A DNA stretch of 50,338 bases from Deferrivibrio essentukiensis (GTDB taxonomy: Bacteria > Chrysiogenota > Deferribacteres > Deferribacterales > Deferrivibrionaceae). Location of the stretch: the NCBI RefSeq assembly GCF_020480685.1, contig NZ_JAJAFU010000019.1:1-50338 (forward strand), read 5' to 3'. The translations under genes and the position numbers were made by a program. Below the pieces are notes generated by a model. The model had not been told where the DNA came from and made no database searches. It worked only from the letters and a program-made list of their open reading frames with translations. Positions 9,556 to 16,699 of this stretch are shown one piece after another. The stretch's first letter is position 1; the number at the start of each line of letters is the position of its first letter.

Positions 9556-10112
9556 TTATGAATGAAGTTATTTTTATTCTTAACTATGAGTCATTTAAAG
9601 ATAGACTCTTTGATACTGCACTCAAAACAGCGCCTTACGCCGATAAGATTTGGTTTAGAATCAAGTCCGAAAGTGCGGCTGTAATCTTCAAATTGGCAAA
9701 AGAACTTAGAAATATTTTACCTGATAAGTATCTTATCCTCTCAGAGAGACCGGAAATAGCGCATATTTTAAACTATAATGCAGTCCATCTTAATCACACC
9801 TGTTCAAAACTGATTTGTCTAAAAAAGATATTTACCAAATTGGATTTTGGCTATTCTGCCCACACTATTGCTGAAATTAAAGAAAAACAAGAGTTTGATT
9901 ACTTTACATTGAGTCCCATTTTTATGACAGATAAACCATACGAAGTAAAACCTTTAGGGGTAATAGATGTGAGTAGTATAAACAAAAAAATTTATGCGCT
10001 CGGTGGTATTAACATTTCAAACGTAAATAGCTTAAAAAATAAGGGATACTCAGGCATTGCCGGAATATCCCTTTATAAGTATCTTGAAAGTATCAAAAAA
10101 TTGTTAACCTAA
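9552..10112 (+). CDS. ThiE/TenI-family protein (thiamine phosphate synthase-like)
   Basis: A 186-residue protein with the TIM-barrel pattern of thiamine-phosphate synthase and TenI: ILSERPEIAHILNYNAVHLN corresponds to the NDRVDLA...GVHLG strand, YSAHT to the HS motif, DYFTLSPIFMTDKP to the GPIF.T.TK phosphate loop and ALGGI to the C-terminal phosphate-binding loop. Several catalytic positions are divergent (SER for NDR, SPIF for GPIF), and the N-terminal QLRDK strand is not recognisable, so TenI-type aminase or an altered role is possible. The ATG overlaps the glnE stop, and there are no other thiamine genes nearby. Its stop codon shares 4 bases with that of the convergent iclR gene. Confidence 0.65.
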   Translation: MIMNEVIFILNYESFKDRLFDTALKTAPYADKIWFRIKSESAAVIFKLAKELRNILPDKYLILSERPEIAHILNYNAVHLNHTCSKLICLKKIFTKLDFGYSAHTIAEIKEKQEFDYFTLSPIFMTDKPYEVKPLGVIDVSSINKKIYALGGINISNVNSLKNKGYSGIAGISLYKYLESIKKLLT

Positions 10113-10894
10113 CCGTGAAAACCGAGCCTCTTTGAAATCTCCCTTGCATACTTCTGTACAACAGGTAGGATTTCGTTATTCATTCTCTCATAACTCATCC
10201 TGCAAGCAGGGCCAGTAACGCTAAGAGCTGCAACAGGGACACCCAAATAATCCTTTACAGGCACAGCGATACATCTGACAGACTCTTCAAACTCCTCATC
10301 ATCAAAAGCGTAGTCCTTTTCAGATACAGTTTTAAGATGCTTTTTTAATTCTGGCAAAGAAGTAATAGTATTATCTGTATACCTCTTAAGTCTTGCCCCC
10401 ATATAAACCTTATTAATTTCCTCTTCTGAAGCGTAGGCAAGCTGAATCTTACCAATAGCAGTGCAATAAGCAGGTGCATCTTTTCCTACCCTTGATACAA
10501 TCCTTACTGTCTGGTCAGCTTCAACTATATCAAGATATATTACGGCACCTTCACGCAAAATACCTATATAAACAGACTCCTTTGTCTCAGCTACAATCTT
10601 TTCCATAAAAGGTTTGGCAAGCTTTAGTAGGCCAAGTTTATTAACAAACTTCTGCCCGAGATTAAAAATACCGATGCCAAGTCTGTAGTTTTCGGTAAAC
10701 TGGTTTTGTTCAATATAACCGCGAGATTCAAGAGTAGCAAGAAGCCTAAAAACGTTATTTTTATGCAACCCCAAAGTCTTACTAAGCTCAGTTACTCCGT
10801 ATTCTTCCCTCTTTTCTGAAGTCCTGAAAACTTCAAAAAGCTGAAGGGCATGATAAACTGACTGAACAAGCTTTACGTTTTGTTTATTAGCCAT
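10109..10894 (-). CDS. IclR-family transcriptional regulator
   Basis: A 261-residue regulator. The N-terminal winged helix-turn-helix spans about 8-70, with the family pattern ALQLFEVF and LGLHKNNVFRLLATLESRGY. The C-terminal effector domain spans about 80-258 and includes CTAIGKIQLAY and FEESVRCIAVPV. IclR proteins control catabolic operons and often themselves through small-molecule binding. It reads divergently from the bd-like oxidase pair, and the 264-base gap contains a strong promoter for this gene with a perfect palindrome at its start site. The ligand is unknown. It is a single-gene unit, convergent with the ThiE-like gene with a 4-base stop overlap. Confidence 0.9.
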   Translation of the reverse strand: MANKQNVKLVQSVYHALQLFEVFRTSEKREEYGVTELSKTLGLHKNNVFRLLATLESRGYIEQNQFTENYRLGIGIFNLGQKFVNKLGLLKLAKPFMEKIVAETKESVYIGILREGAVIYLDIVEADQTVRIVSRVGKDAPAYCTAIGKIQLAYASEEEINKVYMGARLKRYTDNTITSLPELKKHLKTVSEKDYAFDDEEFEESVRCIAVPVKDYLGVPVAALSVTGPACRMSYERMNNEILPVVQKYAREISKRLGFHG

Positions 10895-11100: not shown

Positions 11101-11153
11101 TTGCATATTTTACCTTTCACATATACAATATATTTATAGAATATTCAAGGAGG
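11101..11153 (+). promoter_or_regulatory. Promoter and strong ribosome site of the bd-like operon
   Basis: TTGCAT (11101-11106) and TACAAT (11124-11129), 17 bases apart, precede a strong AAGGAGG (11147-11153) that sits 5 bases before the ATG at 11159. The rest of the 264-base divergent region is AT-rich and shows no RNA structure I can support. Confidence 0.45.
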
Positions 11154-11158
11154 CAAAT

Positions 11159-12436
11159 ATGAATTATCCCATCTGGATAAGTGAAGCTTTATCAGGAGCT
11201 CAGTTAATTGCAATTATAGCTGTTTTTCACGTATTTATCTCACATTTTGCAGTAGGTATGGGGCTATATGTTGTAATAGCTGAAAAAATTGCCATCAAAT
11301 CAGGTAACTTAGAAGAAAAAATATTTGTCAAAAAGAGCAGTGCATTAATTCTGCTGATTTCTGCAGTGTTAGGTGCACTTACTGGGGTAGGAATATGGTT
11401 TAGTATAGCTCTTGTTTCCCCTGCAGGAACTGCTGCATTAATACATATCTTTGTATGGGGTTGGGCAACCGAATGGGTATTCTTTGTCCTTGAAATATTT
11501 GCAATCCTTGCTTACTACTACACGTGGAATAAGGTCTCTGACAATACACACGTCTTTTTAGGGTGGCTATATTTTATCGGGGCATGGATGAGCCTTGCTA
11601 TAATAGCCGGAATTATTGCATTTCAATTAACACCCGGAACTTACCTTGAAAACAAGAGCTTCTGGGGAGCATTTTTTAATCAAACCTACTTTCCGTCAGT
11701 AATAGGTAGAACAGGGATATCATTTGTATTGGCGGGGATATATGCCACACTTGTGCTTTCATTTACCAAAAATAAAGAGATAAAGGTAAAATATGGCAGA
11801 TTTACGGGATATTTTATAATTGCCGGAGCTGTTTTGACATTTTTGGGGATGTATTGGTGGGTGCAGGCAATACCTGAAAACGTCAGAGAACAATTTTTGG
11901 GCGGCAATGAGATTTTATCAAGCTTCTACAATAACTCTATCTATCTTACAGTAGCCCTTATAGGTCTTGCAGCTATTTTCACGCTTGCTATACCAAAATA
12001 CATGAACATTGCATTTGCATTAGTGCTTCTCATATTAGGTCAGATTAGCTTTGGCTATTATGAATTTACAAGGGAAAGAGTAAGAAAGCCATATGTCATT
12101 AGAGATTTTATGTACTCTAACGGTATATTGAAAAGTGAAGTTGAAAAGATTAAAGATGTTGGTTTTTTAAATTATGATAAATGGGCAACAGTCGGGCAAC
12201 CTAACGACGAAATAGGTAAAGGGCGAGGGATATACAACTCTCAGTGTAGAGTTTGCCATATGCCGAAAGGATTTAACGAAATGTACTCAAAGGTGGAGGG
12301 GCTCACAGCTGAAGACCTTTACGGTATGCTTGATGATTTGGATGCAAATCCGCTTATGCCTCCATTTGCCGGAAATGATGAGGACAAAATGGCACTTTCA
12401 AAGTATCTTGAAAAAATAGGTCAAGGAGGTAAATAA
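11159..12436 (+). CDS. Cytochrome bd-superfamily subunit I with C-terminal cytochrome c domain
   Basis: A 425-residue integral membrane protein of about 9 helices. The N-terminus aligns by eye with CydA: His24 in AVFHVFISHFAVGMG matches the heme b595 ligand (E. coli His19), ATEWVFFVLE (Glu105, Glu112) matches the AIEGLMAFFLE helix, and VRKPYVI at 308-314 matches the GRQPWAI motif. The position of E. coli Glu99 is Trp80, no equivalent of the heme b558 histidine is evident (RTGISF), and the quinol Q-loop is absent. Residues about 350-420 form a class I cytochrome c with CRVCH (363-367) and a likely axial Met400 in LMPPF. This suggests an oxygen reductase or related redox enzyme fed by cytochrome c or another donor rather than directly by quinol. 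Stop and start overlap the next gene. Confidence 0.8.
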   Translation: MNYPIWISEALSGAQLIAIIAVFHVFISHFAVGMGLYVVIAEKIAIKSGNLEEKIFVKKSSALILLISAVLGALTGVGIWFSIALVSPAGTAALIHIFVWGWATEWVFFVLEIFAILAYYYTWNKVSDNTHVFLGWLYFIGAWMSLAIIAGIIAFQLTPGTYLENKSFWGAFFNQTYFPSVIGRTGISFVLAGIYATLVLSFTKNKEIKVKYGRFTGYFIIAGAVLTFLGMYWWVQAIPENVREQFLGGNEILSSFYNNSIYLTVALIGLAAIFTLAIPKYMNIAFALVLLILGQISFGYYEFTRERVRKPYVIRDFMYSNGILKSEVEKIKDVGFLNYDKWATVGQPNDEIGKGRGIYNSQCRVCHMPKGFNEMYSKVEGLTAEDLYGMLDDLDANPLMPPFAGNDEDKMALSKYLEKIGQGGK

Positions 12437-13533
12437 TGGAAAATATATTAATCCCTGCTTTCTCATCCGTTCCTTTATCTTCACCAACATGGCTGTTTGT
12501 ATTTTTCCTCGTATTCACTTTCTTCTTACACATACTCTTTGTAAACCTTACTCTTGGCGGAACAATTCTACTTTTAATATCAAAATACATCAGCAAAGTT
12601 TTTGGAGACAATACATATGACGAAATAGCCGAAGAGATCGGCTATCTTAACACATTTAACATATCTTTTGCAGTCACCTTAGGTGTAGCACCTTTGCTTT
12701 TTTTACAAACTATGTATGAAAACTTCTTTTACACATCATCAATATTGCTGTCATGGAAATGGCTTTTAGTACTTGTTGCTATTATTTTTGCATACTATTT
12801 TTACTACCTCTATAAGTTTAAACCTTGGTATATAAAATTTTCCGGTGGAAAAGGGATAATCTTCATAGTATTTGCTGCAATTATGTTTCTTTACGTTGCA
12901 CTTATATTTGTGACAAATACCACCCTCTCAATGCAACCTGAGCTTTGGACTGAAGTATATTCCGGTAAAATATCCGCCTTCAGTGCCAAGACATTGGTAC
13001 CAAGACTTATTCACTTTGTGTTGGCAACAATAGCATTTAGCGGTTTATTTCTAATGGTGTATTCTAAATTTAGAAAAAACTACTCAGCAACGCTTAAAGA
13101 AACAATGTATAATTTTGGTAAAAAAACTTTCTTCTATACAACACTTGCTCAAATTATAGTGGGGGTATGGTTTCTATTTTCTCATGACAAAAATATCTAT
13201 ATGCTTCTTATGGGTAAAAATATTATCGGAACATTTTTCCTTTTAATCTCAATTATTCTTACAGTTATTGCACTTTTTTATGTATACAAAAACAAAGAAA
13301 ATATCTTCTCACTTAGTGCTCTTGTGCTTCTAATAATAGGCTCGATGGTAATAGTAAGAAGAGTAGTTGAAACGGGTTTTTTTGAAAAATATTTTAAATT
13401 AAGCGAGTTAAACGCCGAGCCATATTGGGGAATTTTTGCAATTTTTGTGATACTTTTAATTTTACTTTTAGCTGTAATTTACTATTCCCTTGTTAGAATT
13501 GGAAAAGATATTAAAGATAAAGCGGGAGCTTAG
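12436..13533 (+). CDS. Second CydA-like membrane subunit of the bd-like complex
   Basis: A 365-residue protein with about 9 membrane helices. It does not resemble CydB. Its N-terminus instead has His32 in FLHILFVNLTLGG, closely matching the CydA heme-ligand helix (HFLFVPLTLG), and PRLIHFVLATIAFSGLFLMV places His193 where E. coli CydA has the b558 ligand His186. So heme-ligand candidates lacking in subunit I are present here. The start codon overlaps the stop of subunit I, and AAGGAGG (12424-12430) lies inside that gene's last codons, so the two are strictly co-translated. The closest described precedent is the CydA plus CydA-prime arrangement of some cytochrome bd relatives. The hydrophobicity and motifs are seen; assembly with subunit I is inference. 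Confidence 0.7.
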   Translation: MENILIPAFSSVPLSSPTWLFVFFLVFTFFLHILFVNLTLGGTILLLISKYISKVFGDNTYDEIAEEIGYLNTFNISFAVTLGVAPLLFLQTMYENFFYTSSILLSWKWLLVLVAIIFAYYFYYLYKFKPWYIKFSGGKGIIFIVFAAIMFLYVALIFVTNTTLSMQPELWTEVYSGKISAFSAKTLVPRLIHFVLATIAFSGLFLMVYSKFRKNYSATLKETMYNFGKKTFFYTTLAQIIVGVWFLFSHDKNIYMLLMGKNIIGTFFLLISIILTVIALFYVYKNKENIFSLSALVLLIIGSMVIVRRVVETGFFEKYFKLSELNAEPYWGIFAIFVILLILLLAVIYYSLVRIGKDIKDKAGA

Positions 13534-15840: not shown

Positions 15841-15859
15841 GAAGGCCTTATCGGCCTTC
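15841..15859. terminator. Bidirectional rho-independent terminator
   Basis: GAAGGCC (15841-15847) and GGCCTTC (15853-15859) form a perfect 7-bp GC-rich stem with a 5-base loop. On the plus strand it is followed by TTTC, and on the minus strand by CTTTTTTAAAATATTTT. The stop codon of the minus-strand gene lies in the loop, so its last codons form half of the stem. Confidence 0.8.
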
Positions 15860-16699
15860 TTTCATAATTTTAAACAAATCTATTGGCGTTACTCCAATTT
15901 GAGCAGCCATATCCTTCATAAGACTTTTTTCATCAAACTTTATCCCAGCCTTTTTGAGGTTGGAAAAAGCTAAATTTTTATCAAGTCCATATTCCTCAAT
16001 TACACTCAATATATTCTTTTTACCGAGCCCCGAACCTTCAGCAGGCATCTTTTCTTCAACTTTAGAAGTTTCAGGCTTTACTTCATTAATATCTGCCCCA
16101 ATTTCAGCATCTTTAATTAACAGATAAATATCCTGAGGTGTTTTATTGTTTTTCTTTGCAATCTGCAGCAAAGTTTCGTTTTCATTGTCATACTTAATGC
16201 CATTTTTATTTAAAATTTCTTTTACCTTTGTAAAATCCAAATCCATCTTTTTGGAAAAGTTTTTAAGCCCTACAAGCTCAGCATGCCCAAAAGGGGGCTC
16301 CCCATATTTGTCAGCCCAATAGTCATCTACATCGGACTGCCATATAAAAAGGTCGCTAAAAGGGGAAACCTTGTAATAAGCACCCATAAAAACTGCCGTA
16401 GTTATTATTAAAGCCACAACAAAATTTGGGGTAAACAATACAAAATTCTTTGCTCTGTTTTTCAGGTACTGCATTATTGCCTTCCAGTTAAGGTATATGT
16501 GTAAAATAGAAACAATAAGAAACAATAATGAAGTAGCGGTATGAAGCTCACCGTATTGACTTTTGTTAAGTCCAAGAAGCTGCCACCCTCCCCAATATGC
16601 AACTCTACCTTCAGGAACTATAATTAAAATAAGTCCTGTGTAGCACATGACTAAAAATGACAACAAGGTTGTCAATGATACAATTTTTCTAAAACTCAT
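15848..16699 (-). CDS. DUF4405 membrane protein with a duplicated C-terminal tail
   Basis: A 283-residue protein. Three membrane helices (about 8-28, 52-72, 91-110) carry His53 and His67 spaced like heme ligands of small cytochrome b561-type proteins, the pattern of DUF4405. After a short extracytoplasmic segment, residues about 143-196 and 231-281 are two copies of one motif: a helix, GIKYD or GIKFD, then IAxxxxxTPxDxxxxIK. The copies are separated by a Glu/Pro/Ser linker. A role in membrane electron transfer is plausible but not shown, and the repeats may bind a protein partner. AAGGAGG lies just before the ATG. It is transcribed alone. Confidence 0.7.
   Translation of the reverse strand: MSFRKIVSLTTLLSFLVMCYTGLILIIVPEGRVAYWGGWQLLGLNKSQYGELHTATSLLFLIVSILHIYLNWKAIMQYLKNRAKNFVLFTPNFVVALIITTAVFMGAYYKVSPFSDLFIWQSDVDDYWADKYGEPPFGHAELVGLKNFSKKMDLDFTKVKEILNKNGIKYDNENETLLQIAKKNNKTPQDIYLLIKDAEIGADINEVKPETSKVEEKMPAEGSGLGKKNILSVIEEYGLDKNLAFSNLKKAGIKFDEKSLMKDMAAQIGVTPIDLFKIMKEGR

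Follow-up and report, generated by a model that had tools for sequence, protein, structure and literature searches.

A CydA-like gene pair in Deferrivibrio essentukiensis with features of a cytochrome c-dependent member of the cytochrome bd superfamily

The window analyzed here, a stretch of 50,338 nucleotides from Deferrivibrio essentukiensis (NZ_JAJAFU010000019.1), contains two closely linked genes that encode relatives of CydA. The first (11159..12436, + strand) specifies subunit I, a CydA-like protein of 425 aa with eight predicted transmembrane (TM) helices and a C-terminal cytochrome c domain predicted to be periplasmic. It is preceded by AAGGAGG (11147..11153, +), from its sequence the likely ribosome-binding site of the gene. 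The second (12436..13533, +) specifies subunit II, a partner of 365 aa with nine predicted TM helices that is CydA-like and not CydB. The two open reading frames overlap by 1 base, the A of TAATG at 12436. Divergent from subunit I lies a gene for an IclR-family regulator (10109-10894, −), which is kept within the genus and absent from more distant loci; as a neighbor in the same genus only, it was rejected as a component of the system. A DUF4405 membrane protein with a long soluble C-terminal part (67 bits; 15848-16699, −) is encoded near the pair, not adjacent to it; DUF4405 is a family related to b-type cytochromes.

Subunit I matched PF01654 (Cyt_bd_oxida_I) over residues 17-225 with 50.1 bits (cut-off 26) and the cytochrome c domain PF13442 over residues 352-417, and its family profile found the solved CydA of Geobacillus thermodenitrificans (5doq_A) with an E value of 1.7e-8. 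For comparison with E. coli CydA we use the customary residue numbers of cytochrome bd, for example Glu74, Glu107 and Glu445. His19, Glu99, His186 and Met393 of CydA are named as such in the literature (PMC5322542). Across 74 aligned members of the subunit I family, H24 (11228..11230, +), E105, E112 and E306 were invariant. Alignments with 5doq_A and with CydA from Deferribacterota placed H24 at the haem ligand His19 and the stretch from E105 to E112 (11471..11494, +) at Glu99/Glu107. The segment E306-R-V-R309-K-P-Y at the periplasmic end of TM8 (12074..12094, +) aligned with AEIGRQPW/AEVGRQPW of CydA, that is with E445-x-G-R-Q-P-W, which contains a haem-ligand glutamate. Since the Glu445-type E306 is present alongside H24, E105 and E112, the oxygen site appears complete in subunit I, and on sequence grounds the residues of the di-haem oxygen site would all reside in this protein. 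The initial annotation had correctly recognized His24, Glu105 and Glu112 as retained but had overlooked E306 and distributed the catalytic ligands over both subunits, which is not supported. The same applies to its view that Glu99 had been lost with Trp80 in its place: the alignment puts E105 at E99, whereas W80 occupies the position of E. coli E74, which is Gly in G. thermodenitrificans.

The spacing of the two glutamates provides a hint at the arrangement of the haems. E105 and E112 are 7 residues apart in 74/74 subunit I sequences, as in G. thermodenitrificans CydA; the corresponding spacing is 8 in 17 of 18 CydA proteins from Deferribacterota, the remaining one giving no match to the search pattern. 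According to a review, an inserted Leu101 displaces this glutamate in the E. coli and mycobacterial CydA proteins, while in G. thermodenitrificans, which is without Leu101, the in-plane haem has His on one side and Glu on the other, and the orthogonal haem serves as the O2 site (PMC8951039). Following this logic, the spacing of 7 suggests by analogy that subunit I should share the haem geometry of the G. thermodenitrificans enzyme.

The elements expected of a canonical quinol oxidase were not found in subunit I. In the alignments, the position of the b558 ligand H186 of CydA is not occupied by His and falls beside the invariant R184, so that the ligand pair H186/M393 is not in place. Furthermore, there is no Q-loop, because the linker between TM6 and TM7 comprises only 11-15 residues in all 74 members. 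Both losses had been proposed from the single sequence and hold for the whole family. The same is true for the fused CRVCH/Met400 cytochrome c: a CxxCH domain is fused in all 82 subunit I sequences, and the haem c motif C363-R-V-C366-H367 (12245..12259, +) is conserved in 100% and the haem c ligand Met400 (12356-12358, +) in 99% of these 82 homologues. An AlphaFold2 model calculated from the family alignment (mean pLDDT 93.6) shows eight long helices with the c domain behind them, and Foldseek searches with this model returned solved CydA chains on top and CydB chains next. The Pro-Trp of GRQPW belongs to the loop that follows TM8, and in CydA this loop faces the periplasm (PMC9846854). Judging from the side on which it lies, the c domain of the model would be periplasmic and take the place of TM9.

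As a single sequence, subunit II had no match in Pfam, NCBIfam or the PDB sequences. Its family profile, when run against the PDB, matched CydA (5doq_A, E 2.4e-8) and none of the CydB chains up to E = 10, though many of these are present; the sole other match was a designed protein (E 0.04). PF01654 was matched by 8 of 70 subunit II members, PF02322 (CydB) was absent for them among the 25 families listed, and three copies from Deferribacterota were found directly by PF01654, below its cut-off. In hhalign comparisons, only columns of the first sequence were used because 50%-gap columns gave values of 60-80% for some reversed controls. The values obtained were 97% for II-I, 95% for I-CydA, 88% for II-CydA and 46% for II-CydB, with less than 1% for reversed CydA/CydB controls and 14.5% (I) and 55% (II) for the self-reversed ones; the CydA and CydB profiles are shallow and these percentages rank the pairs only roughly. 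A bd-superfamily tree with 103 rows resolved subunit I, subunit II, CydA, CydB and OR-N-like proteins as five separate groups, in which the CydB branch was the longest, subunit II had a support of 80 and the order of the others was not resolved. In Foldseek, the AlphaFold2 model of subunit II (mean pLDDT 93.9, nine helices) likewise had solved CydA chains as its top matches, followed by chains of CydB. By all these sequence comparisons, subunit II is CydA-like. Its identification as CydB was rejected, since the profile matches CydA and not CydB and the genome is devoid of PF02322. The initial annotation had described the products of both genes as CydA relatives, the partner being unlike CydB; the PF01654 match of subunit I and the 5doq_A matches of both profiles agree with this, and the HMM search that it had named as a possible refutation spoke against CydB. 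Like subunit I, subunit II has no Q-loop, its TM6-TM7 linker amounting to 9-17 residues.

Which haem ligands does subunit II offer? The protein starts with a CydA-like helix with the motif HILFVNLTLGG, which contains H32 (12529..12531, +) at the position of CydA His19, and H193 (13012..13014, +) aligns with the b558 ligand His186, both as originally noted. H32, R190 and H193 are invariant (70/70) and M304 (13345..13347, +) is Met in 69/70 members, at 21-30% identity across phyla. Of the CydA ligand set, subunit II holds merely the H186-type (low-spin haem) and H19-type histidines. Its TM3 lacks any column enriched in His or acidic residues, there are no Glu ligands, and the E445-type position is variable (E, H, R, D), so subunit II is unlikely to hold the oxygen site. 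It seems from the alignments that only the low-spin haem b site has moved to subunit II, with M304, to which the initial annotation had not drawn attention, as the candidate second ligand. It counts against a relay haem at this place that M304 is located in TM8 whereas M393 of CydA resides in TM7.

Support for a His193/Met304 site comes from five genomes (L172, L173, L219, L220 and L221), in which both residues are lost together, H193 being replaced by Phe and M304 by Phe, Leu or Ala, with retention of H32. In the subunit I partners from L172 and L173, position 29 is Leu; otherwise it is His in 98% of the sequences. The gene order in L172 (1635-5754) and L173 (640-5608) is II - Rieske - cytochrome b - I, and Rieske and cytochrome b genes likewise separate the two subunit genes in the H193/M304-less clusters of L219 (1453-4100), L220 and L221; in L172 and L219 these genes were confirmed by Pfam. 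The five genomes may go back to one shared event. We infer that H193 and M304 together ligate a single low-spin haem b, which would have become dispensable in the Rieske/cytochrome b clade. The sequences from Symbiobacterium (L014/L169) argue against this, as M304 is replaced by Leu and H193 is kept, position 29 of subunit I being Gln. The survival of subunit II without H193 and M304 in one clade could also mean that it never carries haem: subunit I would be catalytic and fed directly by its own haem c, and subunit II would resemble CydB, with H32, H193 and M304 serving structural purposes. Canonical CydB does not contain haem (PMC9846854), and the missing Glu ligands fit such a role. However, conservation of H32, R190, H193 and M304 far above that of the remaining protein, the alignment of H193 with a haem ligand and its loss jointly with M304 speak against a haem-free protein, and we regard this explanation as quite unlikely.

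From a scan of genome contigs that gave 115 relatives, 80 loci were kept, which share 33-86% identity with subunit I. They span over a dozen phyla, with loci in Myxococcota, Thermodesulfobacteriota, Acidobacteriota, Nitrospirota, Zixiibacteriota, Omnitrophota, Verrucomicrobiota, Elusimicrobiota, Deferribacterota and others, and the closest named relative (86% identity) is from a Deferribacteraceae bacterium. Among 51 genomes of Deferribacterota, 10 contained the low-scoring PF01654 match that marks subunit I. A subunit II homologue adjoins subunit I in 76 of the 80 loci, almost always directly downstream; L032 and L063 have it upstream. The distance matrices for the two subunits correlated with r = 0.915 (54 thinned pairs), as compared to a maximum of 0.153 in 2000 shuffles, and common species history contributes part of this correlation. 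The subunits are thus co-inherited, and with pairing retained over 80 loci at 33-86% identity the association of the two genes is more than chance. In one member of the Nitrospirota (L216, 3472-8655), canonical cydA and cydB genes are located directly upstream of the subunit I-subunit II pair on the same strand.

The number and position of the haem c groups vary. While subunit I from the window carries a single fused haem c, L160 and L161 are among the relatives with two c domains. In L185, L186 and L188-L192, subunit I is extended by a multihaem part resembling the cytochrome c3/c7/MtrC families of Pfam, resulting in proteins of 882-886 aa with eight CxxCH motifs in total and with subunit II encoded upstream. 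A similar fusion of subunit I with a multihaem cytochrome is encoded in L063 (6001-8643). In L174-L178 and L193 the c domains are attached to subunit II, after TM8. Frames of 883 aa were considered as fusions of subunits I and II, an arrangement that would be proof of a complex; this was rejected, and they represent subunit I plus a multihaem cytochrome. From the sequences, the repeated gain of c haems is hard to reconcile with quinol as the direct electron donor. The c domain in every subunit I and the missing Q-loop point in the same direction, in line with the original suggestion that quinol is probably not the direct donor, and the donor is probably cytochrome c.

Neither another CydA homologue nor a match for CydB (PF02322) was found in the D. 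essentukiensis genome. Its one haem-copper oxidase is, as read from the sequence, of the cbb3 type, with CcoN and, next to it downstream, a cytochrome c protein of the CcoO/P kind, and these genes lie behind one for an Rrf2-type regulator. A CydD-type exporter was rejected as well, the best match among many ABC proteins staying below the cut-off. No bc1 cytochrome b was found in this genome, i.e. no complex III, which counts against a cytochrome c-dependent enzyme, nor was ActD, indicating that the usual link from quinol to cytochrome c is missing or different. In L213 (1506-5228), a tandem CydA-like pair occurs beside an ActD-cytochrome c fusion, i.e. by genes for alternative complex III. The gap between quinol and cytochrome c in D. 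essentukiensis would be explained if the pair had remained a menaquinol oxidase that uses another quinol site, its cytochrome c domain being regulatory or an alternative point of entry. This is very unlikely given that neither subunit has a Q-loop, that c haems were gained in several lineages and that cytochrome c must be reduced somehow in an organism with a cbb3 cytochrome c oxidase.

Murali and colleagues reportedly describe gene duplications within the branches of the bd superfamily, among which OR-C is a non-quinol branch with haem c motifs. With CxxCH fused in all 82 sequences and no Q-loop, the sequence features of the pair fit the OR-C class. The division of the superfamily into qOR, OR-C and OR-N dates from 2021 (Murali et al., as cited in PMC13189123, PMC11707229 and PMC10839748); OR-C, OR-N and a CydA homologue from cable bacteria are the kind of divergent non-quinol members to which the initial annotation had referred. 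In more than 50 delta-proteobacteria, cydA genes fused to multiple c-type cytochromes were reported in the absence of cydB (Degli Esposti et al. 2015, PMC5322542). Their products are cytochrome c-fused CydA homologues like subunit I and were discarded as improper bd oxidases, and the respective passage does not mention a second CydA-like subunit. The CydA homologue of cable bacteria (CydAh), for which O2 reduction was proposed (PMC13047784), resembles the pair in its periplasmic cytochrome c domain, in its proposed function and in being mostly without CydB. It is listed together with a Rieske protein and cytochrome b (PMC12093952, PMC11247825), and in this set of Rieske/CytB/CydA it resembles the L172/L173/L219 clusters. 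In contrast, the pair in the window has no Rieske or cytochrome b gene nearby, and no such cytochrome b family member is encoded in its genome.

In Nitrospira and Nitrospinota, OR-N CydAA′ is a putative pair with cytochrome c as the likely donor, described as lacking experimental proof (PMC10839748, PMC12342949), and resembles the window pair in both respects, the two CydA-like proteins and the proposed donor. Unlike subunit I, the OR-N-like proteins (L194-L212, assigned by genome and size instead of the published HMM) are devoid of CxxCH and of an E99 equivalent at the E105 position, and those from Nitrospira genomes formed a tree group separate from both subunits. With canonical CydAB (5DOQ, 6RKO), subunit I has the fold and the di-haem ligands in common, the spacing being that of G. 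thermodenitrificans. The pair differs from CydAB by the lack of the Q-loop, of b558 ligands in the catalytic subunit and of CydB, as well as by the added cytochrome c.

We consider it somewhat more probable than an even chance that the pair forms a membrane-bound cytochrome c:O2 oxidoreductase, judging from its features an OR-C-like member of the bd superfamily, in which subunit I houses the oxygen site and subunit II a haem b relay. A periplasmic cytochrome would reduce haem c of subunit I on the periplasmic side, where TM9 of CydA would start. Electrons would then reach a low-spin haem b that substitutes for haem b558 and is coordinated in subunit II by His193 and probably by Met304, and would pass from it to the di-haem site of subunit I, with His24/Glu105 binding one haem and Glu306 the other, where O2 would be reduced to water. 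Haem occupancy of subunit II, this electron path, O2 as the substrate and any proton coupling are what we infer from the conserved residues and from related enzymes. The full evolutionary scenario, a transfer of the low-spin haem b to a second CydA-like subunit that created a c-b-dihaem relay across the interface, followed by loss of the relay haem in the Rieske/cytochrome b clade, is put forward more tentatively, at somewhat less than an even chance. No report of a purified cytochrome c-fused non-quinol enzyme of the bd superfamily was found, nor, in the accessible literature, of enzymatic activity of any member of the family, which also counts against the preferred reading.

The same complex and the same electron path could also serve a detoxifying rather than a respiratory reductase, with NO or peroxide as the substrate. 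Deferribacterota are mainly anaerobic, many of them respire nitrate, and D. essentukiensis already has the cbb3 oxidase. Peroxidase activity is known for canonical bd oxidases (PMC4899803), and Rrf2-type regulators, judged by sequence only, adjoin the pair in several loci. These regulators are however found in a minority of the loci and precede the cbb3 genes, too, no NO-detoxification genes were found adjacent to the pair, and the residues of the site are those of O2-reducing bd oxidases, with no extra conserved residues of the NO type. We therefore deem NO or peroxide reduction unlikely. As a cytochrome c:O2 oxidoreductase, the enzyme would likely enable a mainly anaerobic bacterium, which has a cbb3 oxidase besides, to respire O2 at low concentrations or to remove it.

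The pair is real and widespread; its product, which belongs to a known class, is probably an O2 reductase that depends on cytochrome c. As far as could be checked, the corrected ligand map is new, which by sequence assigns the oxygen site to subunit I and a His186-type site with Met304 as the candidate partner to subunit II. Non-quinol enzymes of the bd superfamily are spread over many phyla, and the pair yields a precise prediction for them: an oxygen site in subunit I, a relay haem in subunit II and cytochrome c as the donor. This bears on the handling of O2 by anaerobes such as Deferribacterota and by cable bacteria, and on the way in which the architecture of a quinol oxidase may have been turned into that of a cytochrome c oxidase via a second CydA-like subunit.
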